Made by a program: the position numbers and the translations under genes | Part shown: positions 1 to 13,281 of the stretch, piece after piece | Numbering within the stretch: position 1 is the stretch's first letter | Layout of the letters: the number at the start of each line of letters is the position of its first letter | The notes under the pieces: model-generated | Told to the model about the DNA's origin: nothing | The model's database searches: none | The model's input: the letters and a program-made list of their open reading frames with translations, nothing else | Source of the DNA: Loktanella sp. M215 | Lineage (GTDB): Bacteria > Pseudomonadota > Alphaproteobacteria > Rhodobacterales > Rhodobacteraceae | Direction: 5' to 3' | Length of the DNA: 64,000 bases | Assembly (NCBI RefSeq): GCF_021735925.1 | Contig: NZ_WMEA01000001.1 | Location: 2,386,001 to 2,450,000, forward strand

Positions 1-203
1 GTTGAACAGCGGGTGGCTGGCCCCCCCGATATGACCGGAGCCAGCCATGTATCCTGAGACCTACGATCGCACGATGAGCCGACATGTTTCCATACCTCAG
101 GCACCCTGCCTGAGCGGCGGGACCTGATGCGTCGGCCTGCGAACTTCTGACCAGACAAACCCATCGGCCCGCCTGACCTCTTCTTTAGATCGGGAACATC
201 AAC

Positions 204-452
204 GTGTCGAATATCCATCACATTCATGGCGGAGCGGCGCCGTCACCACAGCCAAAGAGCCGTGGTCCGTACCGCAAGGAGGCGACGGCTGCCGATATCA
301 CCCGCGCGATCCGTGCTGCCGAGATGGCGGGTTTGACAGTCTATAGCTTCAGCGTGGAAGGCGAGAGCGTTCAACTTCAGACCAGGCCTGGTCAGGATGC
401 GATTGGTTGCAAAGCCTCGTTGGCTGACGACTATTTTAACCGTCGTGGCTAA
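204..452 (+). CDS. small hypothetical protein upstream of integrase
   Basis: An 82-residue soluble protein of unknown function, starting at a GTG. The N-terminal third is basic and low-complexity (KSRGPYRKEA), followed by a predicted helix (ADITRAIRAAEMAGL) and a short beta-rich end. Its stop codon overlaps the likely GTG start of the integrase by 8 nt, which suggests translational coupling. Small proteins with the same layout (basic start, one helix with an AxxAG segment) often precede integrases of this type in Rhizobiales and Rhodobacteraceae. A role in DNA binding or excision is only inference. The ribosome-binding site is weak, so the start is uncertain. Confidence 0.5.
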   Translation: MSNIHHIHGGAAPSPQPKSRGPYRKEATAADITRAIRAAEMAGLTVYSFSVEGESVQLQTRPGQDAIGCKASLADDYFNRRG

Positions 453-1533
453 ACTCAGGGTGCAACTCAAGGGCGTCCATCGCGTCCGCAAGACGCTCGC
501 CGGCGGCACATTGGTCGAGTACCACTATGCATGGCGCGGTGGTCCCCGGATTTGGGATAAATCGATGGCCTATGGCCAGAACTCGATCGAATACGTCGAG
601 GCCTTCCGGCATGCCACTATGGCGCGCACGGTGACGAAAGGGACGTTCCAAGACATCATCAATGAATTCTTTGGCTCAAGTGAGTTTGCCAAGCTGGGAG
701 ACCGGACGAAGAAGGATAATTGGGGCAATGTCGCTCGCAAGGGTGGCATCGAGGAGGAATTCGGCAAGGCTCCGATTGCTGCATTCGAGGACAAGCGGAT
801 CCGACAGGAGATCCTACGATGGCGTGACAAGTTCACGTCTGGAACAGGCGACAACCTGATGTCCACGATGCAGCGGATCGTCTCTTTCGCCCACGAACGG
901 GGTCTGCTTTCCGAGCATTACTTGCTGAGGATCAAAAAGCAGGTGAAGTCGAACCGGGCCAGCATCATCTGGACACAAGCGGAGATCGATCTGATGGTAA
1001 AGGATGCCCCTCGCTATGTGAGCAGGATTCTGATCGCAGCGGTAGAAACCGGATTGCGTCCGGGTGATCTGCAGATGCTACAGCGATCCGATTTTCAGAA
1101 GTCAAACAGCAATGACGGGCGCATCATTTTGAAAACGCGGAAGAGCCGCGGCAAAAACTATGCTACAGTGCCAGTCAGTTGGCGTATGGCCGCTCTGATT
1201 GCGAAACTTCCGTTTGACCAAGGCCGGATTATCACTGCCGCAGATGGCAAGGATTTCGAGAATTCGGATTCAATGGGCCGTGCGATCACAGAGTGGCGGG
1301 ATCGCCTCGGGATCCGAAAGGAATTACGCTTGTACGATGCCAGGGGCACTGCCGTCACAAGATTGCTCAGGGCGGGATGTAACCTTGCTGAGCTCGCAAG
1401 TCATATGGGGTGGGGTTATCAACACGCAGCACAGATGGTCGAAAAGTATGCGGCACTTGACCCGGACATGACGGATGGCGTTCGGGAAAAGGTAGAACGG
1501 CGGGAGAGGCTTGACGCAGAGAAGGATTCCTAA
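445..1533 (+). CDS. tyrosine-type recombinase/integrase
   Basis: A site-specific recombinase of the phage-integrase family, expected to insert or excise a mobile element. The C-terminal catalytic domain shows the first arginine in ETGLRPGDLQML, a box-II variant LYDARGTAVTRLL in which the usual HxxR histidine is tyrosine, MGWG in place of the GH(S/T) segment, and the nucleophilic tyrosine in VEKYAAL. The N-terminal half is a SAM-like core-binding domain. An upstream ATG at 397 would add 16 residues lying inside the preceding ORF. The GTG at 445 gives MAKLRVQLKGVHRVR, close to the usual start of this family, so I use it. It converges with the broken PIN gene and overlaps it by 4 nt. Confidence 0.9.
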   Translation: MAKLRVQLKGVHRVRKTLAGGTLVEYHYAWRGGPRIWDKSMAYGQNSIEYVEAFRHATMARTVTKGTFQDIINEFFGSSEFAKLGDRTKKDNWGNVARKGGIEEEFGKAPIAAFEDKRIRQEILRWRDKFTSGTGDNLMSTMQRIVSFAHERGLLSEHYLLRIKKQVKSNRASIIWTQAEIDLMVKDAPRYVSRILIAAVETGLRPGDLQMLQRSDFQKSNSNDGRIILKTRKSRGKNYATVPVSWRMAALIAKLPFDQGRIITAADGKDFENSDSMGRAITEWRDRLGIRKELRLYDARGTAVTRLLRAGCNLAELASHMGWGYQHAAQMVEKYAALDPDMTDGVREKVERRERLDAEKDS

Positions 1534-2108
1534 AGGAACTCGATATCAACGCGCGCCGCTGCAGCCAGCTTCGGCAAGCCAGACTTCGTAAGGTCCAAGA
1601 TGAACTCTGCCGTCGTGAACGGGGGGGCTTGGTACATTTTCCTGACCATCCTAAGCGACCGGGCGCCGTCCGACCTGAACAGTGTATAAGTATTCACCAG
1701 GAAGTCGTCAGCCGTCAGGGCTTCAATGTCGTATTCCTCAAGCTTGTCTGCGGGGAAGTCTCGCAGGTTCTCCGTCACAATGACCTGGGCGCCAGAACGG
1801 ATTGCAGCCGCGAGGACATGTCGGTCATTTCTATCGGGCAGTTCAATTACGTCTATGAACGGCTCATGACCTGTCACCAGGCAGTCATCGAAAACCTTGC
1901 GGATAATCGCCTCCTGTTTCCTTACGCTGCCCTCGAACTAGGGCTTGGTACTGATCACGCTCCGCGTCCACTCATCGAGGATCTGGTTCGTGAAACGCGC
2001 CCTGAACAGTCCCTCCTGGCAGAATGTCAGTAGGACGTCCCGCACCCGGTACGGGTACAAGACATTGGCGTCGAGAACGGCCACAAAGGGGTTCGACCTG
2101 AAGCTCAT
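1530..2108 (-). pseudogene. PIN-domain toxin, broken by an in-frame amber codon
   Basis: Reading leftward from an ATG at 2108 gives a PIN-domain RNase-like toxin: the first acidic motif is in FVAVLDANVLYPYRVRDVLL, then ILDEWTRSVI. The frame continues to the late acidic residues in ELPDRNDRHVLAAAI and VTENLRDF. A TAG at 1940-1938 (codon 57, after STKP) interrupts it, while the reading frame continues unchanged on both sides, so this is a simple nonsense change. The remaining 3' ORF could only restart at a GTG (1877), without the first catalytic aspartate. It follows the antitoxin with an ATGA overlap, the usual layout of a type II pair. Toxin activity is probably lost unless the amber is suppressed. 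Confidence 0.8.
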
Positions 2109-2569
2109 CCGCGGTCGAATTCCTGTCCCAGCCGCGCAAGCTCGTTGAGGCCGGCGCTGCGCGCCGCGTAGCGCTTGTCTCGATACGCCATGAGGGCGGA
2201 CAGGGGGACGCGTCTGTGCTTGCCGACTGGCTCGAAGGCGATCTCACCCTCCTTGAGGAGCTTCGTCAGATGGGGGCGCGACACGTTCAGCATGTCAGCC
2301 GCTTCCTGCGTCGTCAGCATCGTGCCGACTGGCACCAGCGTCACCATGTTGCCGCTGGCTACGTGGCCAAGCAGCTCGATGATGAGCTCGCCCACGGCAG
2401 GCGCGATGTGGACGTCTTGGCCATCCTGACCGGAAACCCGGAGGACCCCATCGATGTCCAGAGCAACGGCGATCGCCGTTGCAGCGTGTGCGGCGCTGTC
2501 AATCTCTTCTGCGGTGGGCAGCCTTGTGTTGAGGCCCGCCGCATCGGCCTGGTCTCTCGTGTCAGTCAT
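2105..2569 (-). CDS. excisionase-type HTH antitoxin
   Basis: A 154-residue DNA-binding protein. The C-terminal half carries an excisionase/MerR-like helix-turn-helix (HTH_17 type) in LTTQEAADMLNVSRPHLTKL followed by the wing KHRRVPLSALMAYRDKR. The N-terminal part (VRVSGQDGQDVHIAP-like segment) resembles the prevent-host-death-like region of antitoxins paired with PIN toxins. The start is the ATG at 2569, preceded by GGGAG 8 nt upstream; the longer ORF frame upstream is not protein-like. The stop overlaps the toxin start by 4 nt. It probably represses its own operon and, when the toxin was intact, neutralised it. Confidence 0.75.
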   Translation of the reverse strand: MTDTRDQADAAGLNTRLPTAEEIDSAAHAATAIAVALDIDGVLRVSGQDGQDVHIAPAVGELIIELLGHVASGNMVTLVPVGTMLTTQEAADMLNVSRPHLTKLLKEGEIAFEPVGKHRRVPLSALMAYRDKRYAARSAGLNELARLGQEFDRG

Positions 2570-2990
2570 TTTGGTTCTCCCTAACCTTGAGACAGATATG
2601 GCTGTGATACGTATCTCAGGCAAGTGTAATAGGAGAAACAACTGAAATAAGTGTAACGACGTGTTTTGAGCGAAGGGTTGTCGAGACCGGACAGGCGATC
2701 CGGCAGGGGAGGCCTTCGAGTATCCGGTCTGGACTTGTTCCATTGATGCGGGGGTGGCACCGAGTTATGTCTAAAGAAAAGCCCATTCAAGCCGGACGTA
2801 AGTGGAATCTGCAGCGGCAATTTGTTTCCAGCCCTCTGTACCGAATGCCGTTCCGCAGCATTTTGCAAAAGCAGAAAAAATTGTTCTGCGCGAACGACCA
2901 ACAACGGCCGTTCAGATCCTGGAGATGCCGCGAGGCGGCATTCACTAAAGTGGCCACTCAGAGGAGCAGGTCGACGCCCAAAAAGACCAT
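2570..2990. other. intergenic region without a recognisable gene
   Basis: These 421 bases separate the toxin-antitoxin pair from the defence-like cluster. Apart from the operator-like repeats near 2606-2656, I see only short frames (for example at 2743-2994) with no recognisable protein character or good ribosome-binding site. The region is visibly lower in GC than the core chromosome further right. Confidence 0.6.
2606..2615. promoter_or_regulatory. candidate operator of the HTH/PIN operon
   Basis: A perfect 10-bp palindrome GATACGTATC lies 37 bp upstream of the antitoxin start, inside a wider imperfect TGAGATAC/GTATCACA dyad. Two direct AAGTGTAA repeats follow at 2622-2629 and 2649-2656. 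Autoregulation by the HTH protein is inferred from position only. Confidence 0.35.
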
Positions 2991-5294
2991 TTAGCGATCT
3001 ACGTCGTCGAAAATTGCCTGGATGTTCGAGCGTGCGCTGGCGGCTCGGCCGACCGGCGTTTCCACTCGATCTTCGACATCAGGGTCGCGGGTCTCATTCA
3101 GGTCCTCAATTGCCTTTCCGATAGATATTCGTCCACTATCAATCTTAGCTCGATCAGGGTCGTCAATCGGAAGCGCATCCTCGAAACCACTCAAAAAATT
3201 TGACAACTCATCGAAGTGACTATCCGGGTCGCTACTCTCGCAATTCGATTTCCAATCAGAAATATGGGTGTCAATTTGATTAAGAACGTCTCGTCTTGCT
3301 CGTTCGAGAAGATTGTCAAACTCGGCATCGGTCAGGAGCGACCGAAGAGACTCGTCGCAGAAAACACCACCATCAGGGACCGAAAGAGTCGTATCGACAA
3401 TGTGTTCTACGAGGCTGAGGCGCTTTTCGTCGGGTAAAAGTTCCGCCTGATGCAGCTTCGCCAATAGTCGATTTTCGGAGGAGTACGCCATGAACGCACC
3501 AGGGCGGAGATCGAGAACATTCGGCACCTGATCTACAACCATACGCAAGAACGCATCGTCGCAGCGTTGACCGAGAAAATAGCGGATGCGGTAGTCAATA
3601 GGATGGACGAGCAAACGATTGAGAAGCGCCGGGTACAGTGTAGGGCCGACGCGGACGCTTGCGCCACGCAACTCTACCCCGCCGCACACGACCTCCTCAA
3701 GCAACCGTTCGAATTTCGCGCCACGCAGGTAAATTTCGGTCAGTTCGGGTGAATTGGCTACGAGTGCAGCATAGGCATCACCGATAGTTGGGTGCTTGAA
3801 GGTCCATTTTGGTCCCTCTGTTGTATCGACAAACAGAGCAAGGCTGCCGCGAAGTGAATCCAGCGCAAGCCGGATTTCGGCAGCGGTGACGCCCAAGAGC
3901 TCCGTGATTAATGCTATACGGTCGTCATTCTCGATTGGTGACGCGAGTTGCCCGCCGTGCATGAAAATGAGTGCGACTGCGGCCGCTTCGCCGCGATCGA
4001 GATTACGCAGAACGTCTTTTAGGAAGTCGACGGGTCGCCGTGCAAAATCGAGCAAGCCCTCCTCTCCAAGTGTCACTTTCGCCGTGAAGAATGCGGACCC
4101 AAGGCGACGAGCTGTCTCAGGAAGAAAAGACGCATCTTCAGCAACTTTCGCCAAATGAGGCTTAATTGCCTTTTTAAACGCAGCGGGTTGATCACCACGT
4201 TTTATGTGATTGTACAGGATTTGTGCCTTCTCTGAGGTTGCCAAGCCTTGGACGTTGATGACCACCTGGGATTTGTCGAGAAGTGGAAATGCGCTGGTTT
4301 TGAGATCGCGATAAGCTGATCGCCAGATGTAGGTGCGGGATGTCAGCAAAAAGCGGGCGCCCTTACGCAGCGCGGCGGCCATCAGGGGCATCTGCCGATT
4401 CCAGCCATCGGCAATATGGCGTTGGTACTGAGTGGCGCCGAACGCATCATCTATCCAGAAGAACTGCTTTGGGTCAGCGGGATTCCAATGCCGCATTATA
4501 TCTTCAGGACTTGTTATGCGGATAGTCGGCGCGTGCCAGTGATCAAGCGCTCCCAAAGCAAGGCTCGCGGCGATAGTCGATTTCCCGGAAGCTGGATCCC
4601 CAAGCAGCAAGACAAAATTATGATCTAGTAGCGCGTCCACGCTCTGACGATGTGCATCTGTAACAACGAAACATGCCAGATCGTCCCCAAGCGCGCTTAA
4701 AATAGCCCGAGATTGCGCATAAGACCGCTCGTCAAGGATCTGGGAAAGGTCTCCCAATCCATAGACCCTCGGCACCATTACCCGTAGCCGTGAAGATTCC
4801 CGAATTTGCTGCGAGATCCAGTCACGGCCAAGAATGACGCAGTTCTTCACGCCCACCGCTTCGAACGCCGCAGCGATCGCGTCGGCCTGCAAGCCCGATA
4901 CGCCGTGGTTTGTGAGAAGGATGTAGTCTTCAGCCAACCCTCTGGCTGCGAGCCCTCCGGCCTTGCTCAGTTCGCCCTTCACCGCGCTCAGGCTTAGCGG
5001 CGCATCCGCTTTGCTCGTAAATTTGCACTGGATTGTCGAGCGACCGGCTGAATCTTTATTTGACCAACGGCCGAGAAATGCACCATCTCGCCCGCCATCC
5101 TTTGAGGGCAGAAATGTCTCAACAGACCGCTTCAGCACTTCCTGAGCGATTGCTACGCACAGGTCTTGAAATGACTTCCAACCTAAAGTGTGAAGAGCAT
5201 AATCGATTTGTGGTCCTTGCGCTGATGGCGACGATGAGCCGTCCACCTGTGTAGGGTCCGTTACTCGTTTCGCTTCCTCTTCATTGATTTCCAA
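2991..5294 (-). CDS. restriction-endonuclease-like/STAND NTPase (predicted defence protein)
   Basis: A 767-residue two-domain protein. The N-terminal part (about 30-170) looks like a Mrr-type PD-(D/E)xK nuclease: GGRDG supplies the acidic residue (D70), and IQCKF supplies a QxK motif (Q89, K91). From about 207 a STAND-type P-loop NTPase follows, resembling the nSTAND3 group, with Walker A GDPASGKST (232-240) and Walker B FFWIDD (278-283), then a long helical C-terminal half without obvious TPRs. STAND proteins with nuclease effectors (Avs-like) sense phage proteins and cut DNA; this one is much shorter than classical Avs. It starts at TTG after AGAGG, 71 nt downstream of the DUF3223 gene in the same direction. 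Its function is inferred. Confidence 0.8.
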   Translation of the reverse strand: MEINEEEAKRVTDPTQVDGSSSPSAQGPQIDYALHTLGWKSFQDLCVAIAQEVLKRSVETFLPSKDGGRDGAFLGRWSNKDSAGRSTIQCKFTSKADAPLSLSAVKGELSKAGGLAARGLAEDYILLTNHGVSGLQADAIAAAFEAVGVKNCVILGRDWISQQIRESSRLRVMVPRVYGLGDLSQILDERSYAQSRAILSALGDDLACFVVTDAHRQSVDALLDHNFVLLLGDPASGKSTIAASLALGALDHWHAPTIRITSPEDIMRHWNPADPKQFFWIDDAFGATQYQRHIADGWNRQMPLMAAALRKGARFLLTSRTYIWRSAYRDLKTSAFPLLDKSQVVINVQGLATSEKAQILYNHIKRGDQPAAFKKAIKPHLAKVAEDASFLPETARRLGSAFFTAKVTLGEEGLLDFARRPVDFLKDVLRNLDRGEAAAVALIFMHGGQLASPIENDDRIALITELLGVTAAEIRLALDSLRGSLALFVDTTEGPKWTFKHPTIGDAYAALVANSPELTEIYLRGAKFERLLEEVVCGGVELRGASVRVGPTLYPALLNRLLVHPIDYRIRYFLGQRCDDAFLRMVVDQVPNVLDLRPGAFMAYSSENRLLAKLHQAELLPDEKRLSLVEHIVDTTLSVPDGGVFCDESLRSLLTDAEFDNLLERARRDVLNQIDTHISDWKSNCESSDPDSHFDELSNFLSGFEDALPIDDPDRAKIDSGRISIGKAIEDLNETRDPDVEDRVETPVGRAASARSNIQAIFDDVDR

Positions 5295-5308
5295 AGAGAC
5301 CTCTATTT

Positions 5309-5320
5309 TTAAGCGCTTAA
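5309..5320. promoter_or_regulatory. 12-bp palindrome before the STAND gene
   Basis: TTAAGCGCTTAA is a perfect 12-bp palindrome just upstream of the ribosome-binding site (AGAGG) and TTG start of the STAND NTPase, in the 71-nt gap after the DUF3223 gene. It could be an operator giving this gene its own control. No regulator is identified. Confidence 0.3.
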
Positions 5321-5365
5321 CTTAGCTAACTGGACGGCCATCCAACCCAAAATCCTCAGACAGCG

Positions 5366-6085
5366 TCATTGGGTCAAGGAGACACGCCCGTCTTTCAGAC
5401 GATGTCGGCTCGCTTGTGCCAGATTGACGGTCTTACAAACGAGATCGAGCCGCGCCAAAGACGTGTGGTACAACCGAAACGCCTCGGACAACGTCTGGTC
5501 GGTCACCTCTGGGGAGACTTGATCGTCCTGCCCGGCCGTAAGCGGAACGTCGTCGAGCGATATGCCCCGACCGCAAAGAAATGTGGTCACGATTACCTCG
5601 AATGTCATCGGTGGGCGATGATCCATATGGGCATCTTCTCGGGTGATCCGCTCACCCGTCGCTGCGCAAGTAGCGTTGCCGTTGGCGTCGCCATGCTTCG
5701 CGAAGAAAGCGTCTCGGGCTTTATACAGATCAAATCGCACGGCCCGGCGAAACGCTTGCGACACCTCCTGCTTACGGCTGGGCGGCCGCTGTGTGATGCA
5801 GTGCGGATAGGAGAAATCCGTACCGCTGCCGTCCGTCCGGATGATGCGGAAACACTGCGTGCCATGTTCAGTCATCATCACTTGGAAGTGGCTGACGCCG
5901 CAGCCGACTTTCGCGACATATTCCGTATGCCGTTCGAGCAAAGCCGCGACGTCCAGAGCATCCTCGTCGTTGACTCGTTCACCTGGACGGTAGCGGTTCA
6001 GCATCGCCTTGAAGAAAGCCGTCGCGGCGCCTTGCTTTTCAAAGCTGCGCGTTGCCAGCTCGACGGGTTTCGATCGCCCTCCCAC
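5366..6085 (-). CDS. DUF3223 protein with HNH-like C-terminus
   Basis: A 239-residue protein. Residues about 22-100 match the DUF3223 fold (FKAMLNRYRPGERV, GVSHFQVM, CFRIIRTDG, FSYPHCI), a domain also found in plant DCL proteins and the RNA polymerase V tail. The C-terminal part has C140-AATGE followed by AHMDHRPPMTFEVIV, which looks like the core of an HNH-type nuclease with D155-H156 as candidate catalytic residues; further metal ligands are not obvious. The gene starts at a GTG that shares one base with the ATPase stop (TAGTG), so the two are translationally coupled. An ATPase plus an HNH protein recalls Septu, but the families differ. Nuclease activity is inference. Confidence 0.7.
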   Translation of the reverse strand: MGGRSKPVELATRSFEKQGAATAFFKAMLNRYRPGERVNDEDALDVAALLERHTEYVAKVGCGVSHFQVMMTEHGTQCFRIIRTDGSGTDFSYPHCITQRPPSRKQEVSQAFRRAVRFDLYKARDAFFAKHGDANGNATCAATGERITREDAHMDHRPPMTFEVIVTTFLCGRGISLDDVPLTAGQDDQVSPEVTDQTLSEAFRLYHTSLARLDLVCKTVNLAQASRHRLKDGRVSLTQ

Positions 6086-8562
6086 TATGCTGCTCCCGCG
6101 GCTGCGAACTCGAACTGGGTCTCACATCCGCCATGCGCGCATACTGGCTTCTTCAACGTGAGGGGCCGCTGGAATTTCGTGCGGCTGCATTTCTTGCAGG
6201 CGAACTGGCTGCGGAACGTCTTGAACTCATCCCATCGTGCCTTTTCGTCGCCAATCGAGCCATCGCCGTAAGGGACGTCCTGAAAATGGCTCCCAAAGTT
6301 TTCGATCGTGCCTGTTGCAAGGCTCGCGAGGAAACGGTTGTTCACGCCGGGCACCAGCGCCGGTTCCAGTTTCGCGTCTTTGAGCAAACCGCCGAGCGCA
6401 GATGCCAACTCGCTACGCTCATAGGAATAGGCCTTCTCCAGCGGTCGGATACGGACGCTGACGCCGAAATCACGGCATATGCCGAGCAGCCATTCCTCTT
6501 CGGCTTGGCGCATTTCATTGGCCGCCGACTGCCCGTCCGCCCAGCGCGTCTCGATCATGTCGTCGCTGACCTTGTGGTCAGCGAATCTTGGCCCTGAAGC
6601 GGGGTCGAGGCTAATGATGCGGGTGAAATGCCACGTCTTCGCTTCGAGTTGGTCCTTTAGATAGTTGAAGAACCGTTCGTCATGGGTGGTGATGAGGACT
6701 TGGCAATCGCCGAACATGGTGGCGATCAACCCGGCAATGGTGCGGCGATGATCGGCATCGTAAGACGTGACAATATCGTCCAGCGCGATGATGGGTGCGT
6801 CAGCGTTGAACTGCTTGATCGCCGCCATGCGCAGCGCCAGCGCCACAGAATGGATCTGGGAATCGCTCAAATAGCCGCCCGGCTGTACACCGGTCCGGTT
6901 CGCAGCAAAATCGATCAGCAGATTGAGGCGTTGCTGATTGCTATCGTCTTCCCCCGGTAGCTCCAGCCGGATCGGCTTGGCGCCCGCGCCTTGGATCATC
7001 TTGTAGATGTCGTTCATTGGCGTCTGGAGCTTATTGAGCAGCGCCTGGACCTTTTTGCGGATTTCTGCCGAGATCGTTGCCGCCTGCGTCGTAAGCGCCT
7101 CAGACAACTTCCCTAACTCCTCGCTTGTCCGCAGCGCCAGATTCCGTTCGCCTTGTAGCTCCAGCAGGCGATCAATCTTCGCTTTAGTTTTGAGATAGGT
7201 GTGATCCCCTTGCTTCGCCTCGATGTCGGAAATGGCTTTATCGAGGGTCGTCAGCAATTTGGAGATCGAGGCGACAATGCCATCGGAGGCTGGCGCGGCA
7301 CTTTTCGCCCAAACTGCGACGCAAGCCTGATACTCGACCAGCTCGCCTTTAAGCGCCGTGTCACTATCGCCAAGCAAGCCAATCAGTCCCGGCAGCGACG
7401 CCACCAGTTGGGTATGGGCGTTGGTCGCCGCCGTCTTAGCATCATCACGCATCTTCTTGGCTGCTGCGTAGTCGGCCAGTTCTTCGAGATGTTTGGCGAC
7501 GTGATCTCGGATCGCTTCTGCGCTGCTAGCCGCGGTGTCCGCGATAGGTGTGAGGCAGACTGGGCAAACCTCTGGTATCGGCGCGCCTTCGGCGAATAGC
7601 GGTTCAGCGGCTTTCCAGAGTGCCTGAAACACGGCTCCAGCCGCCTTGTCGCGCTCCTCTGCTTCCTTGCCTTCGGCCGTCGCAAGCGTCGTGACGGCGG
7701 AATCGAAGGTAGGAACTGCGCCGCTGACCACGGTTTCACCGCTATCGGCGTCAGTCGTCTCCAGCCACAAGCTGGCAGCCGCGCTGCGGATTTGCCGTAA
7801 GCCGGCGAGTCCGATCTTGTTCTCCTCCGCTTTGGCGCGCACCTCCAATTCGACATAGGCCGGATCAAGCGTGGCTAGGGCGGAGAAGACGAGCGCCGGG
7901 TCAAGCGGCGTGAGGATCACCATATTGGCGTGGGAGAGAACCATTGCTGCGTCCCATATTTTGACAGCCTGGCTCGTCTCCTTGGCGATCTGAGTATCAA
8001 CACGCTGGAGCGCTGTCTCGTCTTCGGCAGCGGTCTTGATCTGCGTGCGCAATGAACGAAGGTTCTTCTGGACATCGACCAGCGGGCCGAGTTGCAGCCA
8101 ATTGGCGACATCCGCGTAACGTTGCTCGGCCGTGTGGATTTCAACAAATGTGCGGAGTGCGTGGCCGCGAATGATTGGCGGCACCGCAAAACAAGCATTG
8201 ATGGTGGTCGCCACAGGCGGGATCGGCCGCTTTGCACCTGCCGCCGCGCGACTTCCACTCGTGATATCCTTGCCTGAGACGATGCCGATCGTCACGGTCG
8301 GGGAGATTTTTGCTTCTTCGGCAAGGTTGTGCGCCAAAGCGAACGGACCGGCCTGATTATTGATGGCGCGCTGGCCGAGCCGTTCAAGCGTGCCGTCCTT
8401 GGACAGTATGAACTCAAGTGCATCGATGACGCTTGATTTACCTCTCCCATTGGGCGCGAAGATCGCCAGACATCGCTTCTTGCTGAAATCGAAAGTCTTC
8501 GGCTGGAGATAGGCCCGGAAGCCAGTCAGGCCCAACGACTGGAAAAAATATGGATCAGTCAT
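6085..8562 (-). CDS. SMC/Rad50-like ABC ATPase with zinc-hook and zinc-ribbon motifs
   Basis: An 825-residue RecF/Rad50-type ATPase, predicted to bind DNA and drive an effector. It has Walker A APNGRGKSS (36-44), a central helical region containing CPVC (333-336) that resembles a Rad50 zinc hook, a second helical arm (about 430-515), an ABC signature variant YLSDSQIHS (564-572), Walker B IIALDD (591-596) and the switch histidine in ITTHDE (about 624-629). A C-terminal extension beyond the ATPase head ends in a zinc-ribbon-like CKKC...CAHGGC pattern. It lies between a 74-aa ORF (8-nt overlap) and the DUF3223 gene (1-nt overlap), indicating one translation unit. An antiphage role is inferred from architecture and context. 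Confidence 0.8.
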   Translation of the reverse strand: MTDPYFFQSLGLTGFRAYLQPKTFDFSKKRCLAIFAPNGRGKSSVIDALEFILSKDGTLERLGQRAINNQAGPFALAHNLAEEAKISPTVTIGIVSGKDITSGSRAAAGAKRPIPPVATTINACFAVPPIIRGHALRTFVEIHTAEQRYADVANWLQLGPLVDVQKNLRSLRTQIKTAAEDETALQRVDTQIAKETSQAVKIWDAAMVLSHANMVILTPLDPALVFSALATLDPAYVELEVRAKAEENKIGLAGLRQIRSAAASLWLETTDADSGETVVSGAVPTFDSAVTTLATAEGKEAEERDKAAGAVFQALWKAAEPLFAEGAPIPEVCPVCLTPIADTAASSAEAIRDHVAKHLEELADYAAAKKMRDDAKTAATNAHTQLVASLPGLIGLLGDSDTALKGELVEYQACVAVWAKSAAPASDGIVASISKLLTTLDKAISDIEAKQGDHTYLKTKAKIDRLLELQGERNLALRTSEELGKLSEALTTQAATISAEIRKKVQALLNKLQTPMNDIYKMIQGAGAKPIRLELPGEDDSNQQRLNLLIDFAANRTGVQPGGYLSDSQIHSVALALRMAAIKQFNADAPIIALDDIVTSYDADHRRTIAGLIATMFGDCQVLITTHDERFFNYLKDQLEAKTWHFTRIISLDPASGPRFADHKVSDDMIETRWADGQSAANEMRQAEEEWLLGICRDFGVSVRIRPLEKAYSYERSELASALGGLLKDAKLEPALVPGVNNRFLASLATGTIENFGSHFQDVPYGDGSIGDEKARWDEFKTFRSQFACKKCSRTKFQRPLTLKKPVCAHGGCETQFEFAAAGAA

Positions 8563-8779
8563 TGACCACCTCCGTCTTCGACGGGTCCGCTCGCTCGGAG
8601 GCGAGTTTCAAAATGGCGTCCTTAGCTTGAACAACGGCATTCTGCGCAGGAGTGGCTTTTAGAACGTGTTTCGTCAGGACTCCAGCAAGGTTCCTATCAA
8701 CACCTTCCTTGACAAGTCTCTCACCCAAGGCGTCGAGAAACTCTTCGGGCGTCTCAGATAGCTTTGCCTCATCATCCAT
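8555..8779 (-). CDS. small helical protein, first gene of the ATPase operon
   Basis: A 74-residue acidic, almost entirely helical protein of unknown function (MDDEAKLSETPEEFLDAL near the start). Its stop codon overlaps the ATPase start by 8 nt, so the two are very likely co-translated. No signal peptide, membrane segment or DNA-binding motif is visible. It could be a small partner or inhibitor of the ATPase, by analogy with other compact defence operons; that is inference. Confidence 0.6.
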   Translation of the reverse strand: MDDEAKLSETPEEFLDALGERLVKEGVDRNLAGVLTKHVLKATPAQNAVVQAKDAILKLASERADPSKTEVVND

Positions 8780-9446
8780 GATCGCCGTCTACTACATTTT
8801 CCGTCGTACCTTAGGTGACATTTTTCATTCTGGAACCCCCTCCAGTATTTTACTTGCCGCGCCCACTGATGGGCTAACCGAGAGTCTGCTTTTTGGGTCC
8901 GCAGACGTTTCGGCCAACCCTCGCGGCCCAGGCTTCAGCGTGGCAGTGCTTGCAACCTGCAGACAGCTTGGTGCAGCCCCACCATGGATTGAACGTGCGC
9001 GTCGTCCACGTGTTCGTCGAATTCGCGCCCATCGAAGCCTCCGTATAAGGCGTTCCTAAATCGTTCTTAGAGTCAGAACGTTTCGATTAATCAGCTCAAG
9101 TAAATATGCAAATGTGCAGCGTGTTAGATGCCTACAGAACATGACATCCAGACTGGAAGCCCTCAGGTTTCTAAGTCGCATCTCCGCCACCAGTGACGCC
9201 GATCGCCGGTTTCCAGTGCGCATCAAGATCGCCGTTCCGCCAACTGGCTTTTCTGCCAGCATTACCTTCGCGATACATGACGGGCGTCAAAAAAACTCTC
9301 AGCGCGTGAATGTCGTCCAACGTCCGATAATATCAGATTTTGGTGTCAAACCGGGCTTTGTAAGCTGAACTGTAAACTGCCGCCATGTCCGGCACCGTGC
9401 CGAAGAAAAGGCTGCCTGTAACACTTTGATTTTCTAAGAGGATCGC
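8780..9446. other. intergenic region, possibly decayed mobile DNA
   Basis: These 667 bases lie between the first gene of the defence operon and the tRNA-Gln remnant. Short frames exist on both strands (9056-9262 minus, 9114-9368 plus), but none has a recognisable family, strong ribosome-binding site or codon bias. The segment should contain the promoter of the leftward operon near 8780-8900. No repeat or insertion-sequence end was recognised. Confidence 0.5.
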
Positions 9447-9491
9447 TGGCTGGGGTGGTAGGATTCGAACCTACGGTACACGGTACCAAAA
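9447..9491 (-). pseudogene. 3' half of a tRNA-Gln(TTG), 5' half missing
   Basis: On the minus strand the sequence from the anticodon loop (TTTTGGT, anticodon TTG) through the T-arm (GTAGG TTCGAAT CCTAC), acceptor strand CACCCCA, discriminator G and encoded CCA matches a bacterial tRNA-Gln. The sequence on the 5' side cannot pair: the 5' anticodon strand reads GCGTA where ACGGT is expected, and no TGGGGTG acceptor strand is present. Loss of exactly one half at the anticodon loop is typical of att sites of integrases that use tRNA genes. It sits at the right edge of the integrase/defence region, although its orientation does not fit a simple single-insertion model. Confidence 0.65.
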
Positions 9492-9694
9492 TACGCTGAC
9501 GGCCTACCGCTCTATCGGCAGGAGGGTAAACACGGTGATCAAAGGTAGGAAAGCGATCTGTGCCACCGAGATAAATCGTAGGATCATGCGAACTGCGTAC
9601 AGGTGAACGCAAGAGCACACCCCTGATTGCGGTCAGACACCGCAAGACAAAGGTTAGAAGGCCTTTATTTTCTGGGGTCTGACTAGAGTCCAGA

Positions 9695-9769
9695 TGGTGC
9701 TGTGAGAGAGGATTGAACTCTCGACCTCACCCTTACCAAGGGTGTGCTCTGCCACTGAGCTACCACAGC
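9695..9769 (-). tRNA. tRNA-Thr (GGT)
   Basis: A full cloverleaf on the minus strand: acceptor GCTGTGG pairs with the 3' strand TCACAGC with at most one mismatch, the D-arm is AGCTCAGTGGCAGAGC, the anticodon stem-loop is CACCCTTGGTAAGGGTG (anticodon GGT), and the T-arm is GAGAGTTCAATCCTCTC. CCA is encoded. It marks the start of core chromosome to the right of the accessory region. Confidence 0.95.
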
Positions 9770-9853
9770 ATCCGTGGCGCGGAATTAGCGGACCTTTTGG
9801 CAGGGTGCAAGCCCTGTCTGGACCAAAATTTGGGCAAATGCTAGGAATGGCAG

Positions 9854-10000
9854 ATGACCGAAAAACCTGACATTTCCGTTCGCCGCCCAAAGACAGCCGC
9901 CGAGGCGCGCGAGGCGCGGCTGAAGGCCGCCCTGAAGGCCAACATGGCCAAGCGCAAGGCGCAGGCCAAGGCGCGCAAGGTGGAAGACGACCCGGCCTGA
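9854..10000 (+). CDS. small basic, lysine/alanine-rich protein
   Basis: A 48-residue ORF too short for most gene callers. It starts MTEKPDISVRRPKTAAEAR and continues as a highly charged Ala/Lys/Arg helix, ending KVEDDPA. GC-rich codon use fits the neighbouring core genes. Similar tiny proteins (RPKTAAEAREARLKAAL pattern) are commonly annotated as hypothetical in Rhodobacteraceae upstream of murA. The function is unknown; the charge pattern could suit nucleic-acid binding. An overlapping ATG at 9848 in another frame stops at once. Confidence 0.6.
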   Translation: MTEKPDISVRRPKTAAEAREARLKAALKANMAKRKAQAKARKVEDDPA

Positions 10001-10147
10001 GGGTCTGTCCGGCATCATGGCGCTGACGGACCGTCCGGGATCCGGCATGCGAGGTGCCACTGTTGGTGCCGGCGCCTGCGACTGGACGATGCCGGGCAGG
10101 CGGGGTAACACCGCGGCCAACGGGCCGCAGCCAGGAAAGTTTGCATC

Positions 10148-11416
10148 ATGGATTCTATCGTCGTCACCGGGGGCAAGGCCCTGCACGGCCAGATCGCCAT
10201 TGCCGGGGCCAAGAACGCGGCGCTGGCCCTAATGCCCGCGACCCTGCTGTCAGAGGAGCCGTTGACCCTGACCAATGCACCGCGCCTGTCCGACATCAAG
10301 ACGATGACAGCCCTGTTGCAGTCCTTGGGGGTCGAAGTGACCTCGATGCAGAACGGCAAGGTGCAGGTGCTGTCGAGCCATGCCATGACCTCGACGACCG
10401 CGGATTATGAAATTGTGCGCAAGATGCGGGCGTCGAACCTTGTGCTAGGTCCGCTGCTGGCGCGGCATCATCAGGCGATCGTCTCGCTGCCGGGCGGCTG
10501 TGCCATCGGTGCGCGGCCCATGGACATCCACGTCACGGCGCTGGAGGCGATGGGCGCGCAGATCGAGCTGCGCGACGGCTATCTGCATGCCAAGGCGCCC
10601 GGCGGGCTGAAAGGGGCAAGGGTGCCGCTGCGGTTCGCGAGCGTCGGGGCTACTGAAAACGTGCTGATGGCGGCGACGCTGGCGCGCGGTACCACAGTCA
10701 TCGAGAACGCCGCGCGCGAGCCCGAGATCGTCGATCTGGCCCAGTGCCTGCGCCGGATGGGCGCACAGATCGAAGGCGAGGGGACGTCGACGATTACGGT
10801 GCAGGGGGTGGACCGGCTTGGCGCTGCGACGCACCCTGTCGTCACGGACCGCATCGAACTGGGCACCTACATGCTGGCGCCGGTGTTCTGCGGCGGCGAA
10901 GTGGAGTGTCTCGGCGGGCGCATGGACCTTGTCGCGGCGTTTGCTGAAAAGCTGGATGCGGCCGGTGTCGATGTGACCCAGACTGACAAAGGGCTGAAGG
11001 TCAAGCTGCGCGGCGACCGACCGCGGGCGGTGGACGTTGTCACGGAACCCTTCCCAGGCTTTCCGACAGATCTGCAGGCGCAGATGATGGCGATGCTGTG
11101 CCTGGCCGACGGCACATCGGTGCTGGAAGAGAAGATCTTCGAGAACCGCTTCATGCATGCCCCCGAACTGGTGCGGATGGGGGCGCGGATCGAGGTGCAT
11201 GGCGGCCATGCCACGGTGCAGGGGGTCGAGACGCTGAAAGGTGCGCCGGTCATGGCCACCGACCTGCGGGCCAGCGTCTCGCTGATCCTTGCGGGGCTGG
11301 CGGCACAGGGCGAGACGATCGTGAACCGGGTCTATCATCTGGATCGCGGATACGAGCATGTCGAGGACAAGCTGGGTGCCGTGGGCGCGCAGATCGAAAG
11401 GGTAAGCAGCACATGA
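10148..11416 (+). CDS. murA: UDP-N-acetylglucosamine 1-carboxyvinyltransferase
   Basis: MurA catalyses the first committed step of peptidoglycan synthesis in the cytoplasm, transferring enolpyruvate from PEP to UDP-GlcNAc. The 422-residue length is standard. The start [20 protein letters not shown] leads into the conserved GAKNAAL (substrate-binding Lys-Asn), and [12 protein letters not shown] carries the catalytic, fosfomycin-reactive cysteine. An AGGAAAG ribosome-binding site precedes the ATG. The stop overlaps the DUF2948 start (ATGA), so the two genes form an operon. Confidence 0.97.
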
Positions 11417-11889
11417 CCGAAGACGCGCGTTTCGAAGACGGTGTGGATCGCCCGCTGGCCCTGATGGCTCGCGATGCGGAGGATTTGCAGGTCATCTCGG
11501 CCCTCGCGCAGGATGCGGTGTTTCCGGCGTCCGAAATGCGCTGGACCCCGGCGGACCGGCGCTTTGCCATCCTGCTGAACCGGTTCCGGTGGGAAGATGC
11601 GCCCAAGGCGCAGGGGCGTCGCGATTTCGAACGGGTGCAGACGGTGCTGCTGATCGAGGATGTGATGGGTGTGCGGTCGCAGGGCGTGCCCAAGGGCGAT
11701 GCCGATACGATCCTGTCGCTGCTGGCGCTGGAGTTTCGGCCAGGCGAGGATGGCACCGGAGAGGTCGTGATGACACTGGCGGGGGACGGCGTGATTTCTT
11801 GCAGCGTCGAGGCGCTGGAGGTCATCCTGCGCGATGTGACTCGGCCCTATGTCGCACCGTCGCGCAAGGCGCCGCGACATCCGGACTGA
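11413..11889 (+). CDS. DUF2948 family protein
   Basis: A 158-residue cytoplasmic protein of unknown function, conserved after murA in Rhodobacterales. Visible family features are [18 protein letters not shown] near the start, [13 protein letters not shown] in the middle and [16 protein letters not shown] at the end. The start ATG overlaps the murA stop by 4 nt; longer frames starting further upstream lie inside murA and are not real. Coupling to murA and proximity to hisD are conserved, but no biochemical role is known to me. Confidence 0.85.
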
Positions 11890-11976
11890 TTGCGGCCGCC
11901 GTGAAAGATTCTAAGCCTCCGGCGGGAGTTTATCTGGTCAGATGAAAGGCTGCTCGTCGCAGCGGAAGGACATGAC

Positions 11977-13281
11977 ATGCCACAGTTTCTGGACGCGCAA
12001 GACGCGGATTTCGAGGCGCGGTTTCAGGCGCTTTTGAGTGCCAAGCGCGAGGACAGTCCCGATGTGGACGATGCGGTCGCGGCCATCATCGCGGACGTGC
12101 GGGGCCGGGGGGATCAGGCGCTGATTGACCTGACCGCGAAATTCGATCGCCTGACCCTGACAGCGGACCGTCTGCGGATCTCGACCGCCGAGGTCGATGC
12201 GGCCTGCGCCGAAGTCGGGGCCGAGGACCGCGCGGCGCTGGAACTGGCGGCGGCGCGGATCCGTGCCTATCACGCGCGCCAGATGCCGGAGGACCAGCAG
12301 TGGACCGATGACGCAGGCGCCCACCTGGGCTGGCGCTGGACGCCGGTGTCGGCGGCGGGGCTTTATGTGCCGGGCGGGTTGGCGAGCTATCCGTCGTCCG
12401 TGCTGATGAACGCGATTCCGGCCAAGGTGGCGGGCGTGGCACGGCTGGCCATGGTGGTGCCGACACCGGACGGCGTGCTGAACCCGCTGGTGCTGCTGGC
12501 GGCAAGGATCGCGGGCGTCGATGAAATCTATCGCATCGGCGGCGCGCAGGCGATTGCGGCGCTGGCTTACGGCACGCAAACCATTGCCCCCGTGGACAAG
12601 ATCACGGGACCGGGCAATGCCTATGTCGCGGCGGCCAAGCGGCGGGTGTTCGGCAAGGTCGGGATCGACATGATTGCGGGGCCGTCGGAGATTCTGGTCA
12701 TCGCGGACGGTGACAATGATCCGGACTGGATCGCGCTCGACCTTCTGTCGCAGGCGGAGCATGACGAGAGCGCGCAGTCGATCCTGATCACCACCGATGC
12801 CGCCTTTGGCCGGGCCGTGTCCGATGCGGTCGATGTGCGCCTGCAGACTCTGGAACGGCGCAAGATCGCCGGGGCAAGCTGGCGCGATTTCGGCGCAGTG
12901 ATCACGGTGCCTGACCTCGATACCGCTGTCGCCTTATCTGACCGGATCGCGCCGGAACACCTCGAACTTTGCGTGGCCGATGCGGATGCGTTGAGCCTGC
13001 GGATCGCGCACGCGGGGGCCATCTTTATCGGTGGCTGGACGCCGGAGGCAATCGGTGACTACATTGGGGGCCCGAACCACGTGCTGCCCACCGCCCGGTC
13101 GGCCCGGTTTTCCAGTGGATTGTCCGTCATGGATTTCATCAAGCGCACGACCCTAGCCCGGATGACCCCCGCCGCACTGGCCGCGATCGGGCCCACTGCG
13201 GCACGGCTGGCGCTGTCCGAAAGCCTGCAGGCGCATGGCTTGAGCGTGCAGGCCCGCCTTGATCGTTTGAACCGGCCATGA
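11977..13281 (+). CDS. hisD: histidinol dehydrogenase
   Basis: HisD carries out the last two steps of histidine biosynthesis, oxidising L-histidinol to L-histidine with NAD and zinc. The 434-residue length is usual. Visible motifs are the NAD-binding GPGNAYVAAAKR region, the zinc-binding AEHDESAQS, DRIAPEHLEL with the catalytic Glu-His pair, and GGPNHVLPT near the C-terminus. It is separated from its his pathway partners, as is common in this group, and its stop overlaps the UPF0262 start (ATGA). Confidence 0.97.
   Translation: MPQFLDAQDADFEARFQALLSAKREDSPDVDDAVAAIIADVRGRGDQALIDLTAKFDRLTLTADRLRISTAEVDAACAEVGAEDRAALELAAARIRAYHARQMPEDQQWTDDAGAHLGWRWTPVSAAGLYVPGGLASYPSSVLMNAIPAKVAGVARLAMVVPTPDGVLNPLVLLAARIAGVDEIYRIGGAQAIAALAYGTQTIAPVDKITGPGNAYVAAAKRRVFGKVGIDMIAGPSEILVIADGDNDPDWIALDLLSQAEHDESAQSILITTDAAFGRAVSDAVDVRLQTLERRKIAGASWRDFGAVITVPDLDTAVALSDRIAPEHLELCVADADALSLRIAHAGAIFIGGWTPEAIGDYIGGPNHVLPTARSARFSSGLSVMDFIKRTTLARMTPAALAAIGPTAARLALSESLQAHGLSVQARLDRLNRP

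Follow-up and report, generated by a model that had tools for sequence, protein, structure and literature searches.

The question raised by this locus is whether four adjoining genes, lying beside an integrase gene near one end of a 64,000-nucleotide stretch of the Loktanella sp. M215 genome (contig NZ_WMEA01000001.1, positions 2,386,001 to 2,450,000; here called the window), make up one system, and whether that system serves in defence. A sequence-only reading had taken them for a defence island encoding a small helical protein, an SMC/Rad50-like ATPase, a DUF3223/HNH-like protein and an Mrr-like STAND NTPase. The view that we moderately favour is that they form an anti-phage or anti-plasmid cassette of the kind that combines an SMC-like sensor with an exchangeable effector.

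A four-gene block shared with Brucella

The four open reading frames (ORFs) are intact and co-directional, on the minus strand, and span 2991-8779. Gene 1 (8555..8779) encodes a small core protein of 74 residues. Gene 2 (6085..8562) encodes a Rad50/SMC-like ABC ATPase of 825 residues with Pfam SMC_N and AAA_23 matches, whose C-terminal domain (residues 650-825; 6088..6615) is predicted from a structural model and the alignment to be a helical bundle with a zinc ribbon. Gene 3 (5366..6085; 239 residues) contains Pfam DUF3223, and gene 4 (2991..5294; 767 residues) contains nSTAND3 together with a weak match to Mrr_cat. Genes 1 and 2 overlap by 8 nt and genes 2 and 3 by 1 nt; gene 4 follows after 71 nt. 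The G+C content is 56.4% across the four genes, compared with 64.7% for window positions 10000-64000. In layout, in these domain assignments and in the lower G+C content, the sequence-only reading was borne out.

A single block of homologous DNA, covering window positions 2991-8785 (5810 alignment columns, 84.2% identical), is found in Brucella pseudogrignonensis (locus L004), a member of the Hyphomicrobiales and thus of a different order from the window genome, which belongs to the Rhodobacterales. The block comprises all four genes, starting 6 nt ahead of the first start codon and ending at the stop codon of the STAND gene; comparison of window positions 1-12000 with L004 found no further shared DNA. 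Because L004 shares exactly this block, in the same order, the four genes constitute one cassette. The ratios of nonsynonymous to synonymous divergence (dN/dS, NG86) for genes 1 to 4 are 0.18, 0.094, 0.068 and 0.078, at dS of 0.64-0.92. The four genes are similarly diverged and each is under purifying selection in this pair. A homologous block in the same order, with dN/dS of 0.07-0.18, places the set beyond chance.

A remnant of the set is seen in genome G042. Its STAND gene is 91% identical to gene 4, and the DNA homology continues into the 3' end of the HNH gene, as far as window position 5449; no SMC match is listed for this genome. Since the end of the HNH gene is still attached, the STAND gene of G042 derives from the four-gene set.

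The conserved core and its exchangeable partners

A genome scan gave 58 SMC loci, mostly in Alphaproteobacteria, with some in Beta- and Gammaproteobacteria, Chloroflexota and others. All four genes are present in only one of them (L004). The small gene, by contrast with the genes downstream, is constant: it lies just upstream of the SMC gene in 50 of the 50 testable loci by profile search (the weakest match being L056, E 2e-4), 33 of which had seeded the profile and 17 had not. The other eight loci (L039, L049, L054, L055 and L058-L061) lack the SMC start or the upstream DNA. The 74-residue protein itself matches no Pfam or PADLOC family, and has only weak, irrelevant matches in NCBIfam.

The SMC protein was aligned in 41 sequences, namely the window, L070 and 39 of the 58 loci (three of those distant). 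The Walker A motif, the CPxC hook, the LSDSQ signature, the LDD Walker B motif and the THDE H-loop are invariant throughout. The ATPase would be expected to form a zinc-hook dimer. An EN..SH motif and four ribbon cysteines in the tail are also kept, with L028 and most members of its clade having one residue fewer in the first zinc-ribbon spacing. The model of the tail has a pLDDT of 74.8 overall, and below 50 around the EN..SH motif. Foldseek returned no match for the tail at E <= 0.001, and Pfam only weak zinc-ribbon and scattered matches; there is a weak suggestion that the helical domain is HEPN-like.

The gene downstream of the SMC gene varies. An HNH gene directly follows it in 11 of the 58 loci (frameshifted in L022), an HD-CE+HATPase gene in seven (truncated in L014, and running off the contig in L012), and an Mrr-nSTAND3 gene in six. 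Single loci have PDC-M54A (L032), a Lon-like protease extended by some 230 residues at its N-terminus (L033:11894-14872), or an HNH stump whose DNA homology reaches window position 5948 (L005). No recognised partner was found in the distant SMC group of 13 loci, where the scan covered three genes downstream and one upstream, and in six loci (L007, L038, L054, L059-L061) the partner was not assessable. Partners may also be stacked, as HNH+STAND in the window and L004, and as HD-CE+HNH in L040 and L009, where the HNH gene is split over two frames.

In the nine loci measured, HNH homology begins no more than 1 nt to either side of the SMC stop codon (-1 to +1 nt). The partner-less L006 and the HNH-bearing L020 have in common a block of 91.8% identity, which ends 7 nt short of the SMC stop. 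On a tree of 41 SMC proteins the partner labels require 15 changes, compared with a minimum of 6 and a mean of 24.9 on shuffling, none of 200 shuffles being as low. The partners are therefore clustered yet repeatedly exchanged. Clustering is strong for HD-CE and STAND, for neither of which any of 500 shuffles was as low, and only weak for HNH and 'none' (49 and 47 of 500). With the small gene constant and the downstream gene variable, the conserved unit is a two-gene core with exchangeable partners. The sequence-only reading withstood the refuting test that it had named, since the four genes are found together elsewhere, in L004 and as a remnant in G042. As a set they are nevertheless rare, and it is the small protein and the SMC that are conserved, HNH and STAND making up two of five or more partner types.

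It may be asked whether gene 4 belongs to the cassette at all. The four genes could be two systems side by side, the small-SMC-HNH genes being accompanied by an independent, hitch-hiking Mrr-nSTAND3 defence protein; this differs from the single-cassette reading only in the role of gene 4, and we regard it as a serious if less probable alternative. It would fit the 71-nt gap before the STAND gene, the fact that 10 of the 11 HNH loci have small-SMC-HNH but lack this STAND, and the STAND relatives in G042 and in G283 (47%; G283 also has an HD-CE relative, 38%), neither of which has an SMC match listed. Plasmids point the same way, STAND relatives being common there, with none of the best 40 of 46 records among the 22 SMC plasmid records. 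On the other hand, the block shared with L004 ends precisely at the STAND stop codon, the STAND gene of G042 carries the HNH 3' end, and six loci have a more distant STAND (35-36%) as their third gene, a further case (35-37% identity) occurring in G236. As regards the INDEPENDENCE of partners, HNH relatives of at least 80% identity were found in 4 of 37 plasmid records, all four of which are also SMC records; three of these four matches are partial, and the remaining 33 records are below 60%.

Putative nucleases, named systems and function

What might the partners do? Nearly the full length of gene 3 is covered by a match to PADLOC HamC2 (E 2e-55), and the gene 3 residues D155, H156 and N221, which we take to be a catalytic-type DH...N motif of HNH nucleases, are invariant in all 52 aligned rows. 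The predicted fold and these residues suggest that gene 3 is likely to be an HNH-like DNA nuclease. Gene 4 matches the PADLOC candidate PDC-S73 over residues 31-377. In this it resembles STAND NTPases with nuclease N-termini; it differs in that its C-terminal half is unmatched and that it is tied here to an SMC core. In 20 aligned proteins D66-G-G-x-D70, Q89-C-K91 and the P-loop residues G232, G237, K238 and S239 are invariant. The residues expected for catalysis are thus kept in both the HNH and the STAND proteins, which counts in favour of both being nuclease effectors.

On the basis of these features, we propose that the small protein and the ATPase would form a complex that senses foreign DNA structures or ends, and that ATP-dependent closing of the heads would unleash the neighbouring effector. 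Once activated, the DUF3223-HNH protein would act as a DNA nuclease, perhaps positioned by its DUF3223 part, and the Mrr-nSTAND3 protein would be a second nuclease effector on the cassette, either in series with the first or as a back-up to it.

The closest design is that of Lamassu/ABC-3C. As described in PMC10586767, these systems have an SMC-like sensor, a small middle component that is missing from some systems, and varied effectors including HNH and Mrr types; the C-terminal domains that dock the effector are variable. Reviews propose that DNA ends or hairpins are sensed. Lamassu (LmuA-LmuC-LmuB, DdmABC), as described there, shares with the cassette an SMC-like ATPase with a CPxC-type hook, a small partner and exchangeable effectors. 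In Lamassu, however, the small protein is the middle component, whereas the order here is small-SMC-effector. The Lamassu SMC has about 650 residues, compared with 825 here, where there is an additional conserved helical and zinc-ribbon tail; the 74-residue protein has no PADLOC match, to LmuC or otherwise; and the Walker B glutamate, generally replaced by glutamine in Lamassu, is aspartate (LDD) in all 41 aligned proteins. Membership on the strength of the match to the LmuB model (E 1.3e-25, 88.7 bits) was considered and rejected, because an SbcC-like control from L016 scores higher (3.7e-28, 97.1 bits). Since the LmuB match is unspecific, LmuC has no match, Walker B has Asp, the order differs and no common docking domain was found with shallow profiles, membership in Lamassu is unsupported. 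The cassette would thus appear to be similar in design to Lamassu/ABC-3C, its defensive role being suggested by its domains and company.

Other named systems share single components. Hachiman type II (HamA-HamB-HamC) has in HamC2 a full-length relative of gene 3; here the partner of gene 3 is an SMC protein, and no HamA or HamB is among the PADLOC matches listed for seven window proteins (the best 25 of 45 for the SMC). On the left flank nine proteins, searched against Pfam alone, gave type I restriction-modification (R-M), AAA and integrase matches. The role of this HamC/DUF3223 protein in Hachiman II is described as not known (PMC8565338). Septu (PtuA with the HNH protein PtuB) differs, as the PtuA match (E 2.8e-4) covers the P-loop only and gene 3 has no PtuB match.

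Several observations weigh against the proposed sensor-effector cassette. Pfam assigns gene 3 to no HNH family by sequence, and fold support for the HNH reading is modest, so that this claim of the sequence-only reading stands on predicted fold and conserved residues and not on Pfam. BLASTP and hhalign, the latter with shallow profiles, found no region common to the HNH, HD-CE and STAND proteins. Some plasmid records and genomes carry a STAND relative with no SMC match listed. The set corresponds to no named system in PADLOC 2.0 or NCBIfam, and the sequence-only reading had likewise recognised none. Finally, the core is present with no recognised partner beside it in 12 of the 58 loci. Some of these look decayed or carry ORFs of no recognised identity: L027 keeps 95 nt resembling the DNA just after the SMC gene of L025, L006 has an integrase at the partner position, and L015 and L034 have short ORFs after the SMC gene. 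However, the partner-less L006, L011, L013 and L015 form a supported clade in which the SMC dN/dS is 0.18-0.21 in the five pairs measured. This purifying selection implies that a partner may not be needed. In partner-bearing pairs the ratio is 0.13-0.15 in five of seven, the other two being 0.18 and 0.35 (the latter at dS 0.02).

The core could itself be the effector: in the manner of PrrC/RloC, the ATPase tail (HEPN-like domain and zinc ribbon) would attack RNA, the small protein would serve as a regulator and the downstream genes would be add-ons. PrrC/RloC also have a Rad50-like ABC head and a C-terminal domain of the kind that the tail may represent, and a type I R-M operon is nearby. They differ in that the HEPN motif is R-x4-6-H, whereas E754-N755-x3-H759 is found here, with the Glu invariant in 41 proteins, and in that the cassette has an extra zinc ribbon and separate nuclease genes. 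We consider this unlikely. Slightly less unlikely, though still speculative, is a wider form of the sensor-effector proposal, in which the core is a not-yet-named immune chassis, spread from Alphaproteobacteria to Chloroflexota and able to act alone through its HEPN-like tail. Such a chassis would acquire and shed partners (HNH, HD-CE/HATPase, Mrr-nSTAND3, Lon-like protease and PDC-M54A), replace one by another or combine them, the switch taking place at the SMC stop codon.

Were the cassette an SbcC/RecF-like module for DNA repair or recombination, carried on a mobile island and having no part in immunity, this would explain why the family matches are to generic SMC, RecF and Rad50. Such a module is hard to reconcile with the patchy distribution of the SMC, which is matched in 3 of 385 genomes of the class (one just 26% identical) and 3 of 394 genomes of the family (the window genome included), or with exchangeable nuclease and NTPase partners and defence-type neighbours in several loci; we think it improbable.

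If the sensor-effector cassette does act in defence, SMC-based immunity would be broadened beyond Lamassu and Wadjet, and one sensor with many effectors would have another example. The natural versions with no, one or two partners, some about 92% identical in core DNA (L006 and L020), make effector switching by an SMC sensor testable. The HamC/DUF3223 protein would also be placed in a second setting besides Hachiman II, as a likely nuclease effector. The gene set is undescribed among the matches listed from the open-licence literature, which is weak evidence of absence, and the matches listed there for HD-CE are unrelated papers. No relative of the SMC was found in viral contigs (peptide-pattern scan) or in a phage collection (tblastn).

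Genomic surroundings

The cassette lies between mobility genes and tRNA sequences. On its left are a tyrosine integrase (397-1533; Pfam), as the sequence-only reading had noted, an excisionase-type helix-turn-helix gene (2105-2743) and a PIN-domain ORF (1530-1877, minus strand). The last aligns only to positions 78-175 of the RSP_2648 family model, which has 177 positions, and is probably a broken toxin gene beside the excisionase-type gene.

On the right, the tRNA remnant noted earlier is real: 51 nt at 9441-9491 (minus strand) perfectly match the 3' portion of an intact tRNA-Gln(ttg) (G000 C1:1,610 kb), the 5' half being degenerate. It lies beside an intact tRNA-Thr (9695-9769) and looks like the integration scar of an element using tRNA-Gln. 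When a 27-base segment of the remnant is compared with the genome, the only two hits are the remnant itself and the intact gene, so that the other end of the element was not found. Integration into the adjoining tRNA-Thr was considered and rejected, as no 16-mer of 9300-9800 recurs from -15 kb to +64 kb. Between the cassette and the remnant, a 50-residue ORF (8881-9031, minus strand) has no Pfam match; it looks like the beginning of a DUF5131 (phage Gp37/Gp68) protein and then stops.

To the left of the window there is a type I R-M operon (L002:5719-13059) with HsdM, HsdS, an HNH_2 protein and HsdR by Pfam. The extra HNH_2 protein is situated between HsdS and HsdR. The island description thus holds as far as defence-like genes beside an integrase and an R-M operon are concerned, and defence itself is suggested by domains and company. 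Some SMC loci adjoin AbiE, SIR2+HerA-like, SbcCD-like and methylase or R-M genes. In addition, L004 has genes for a ParB_N protein and a Strawberry-notch-like helicase upstream of the cassette, on the opposite strand (L004:609-9445, where the domains were scanned); related genes in L008, L035 and L037 bring this recurrent neighbour to four loci.
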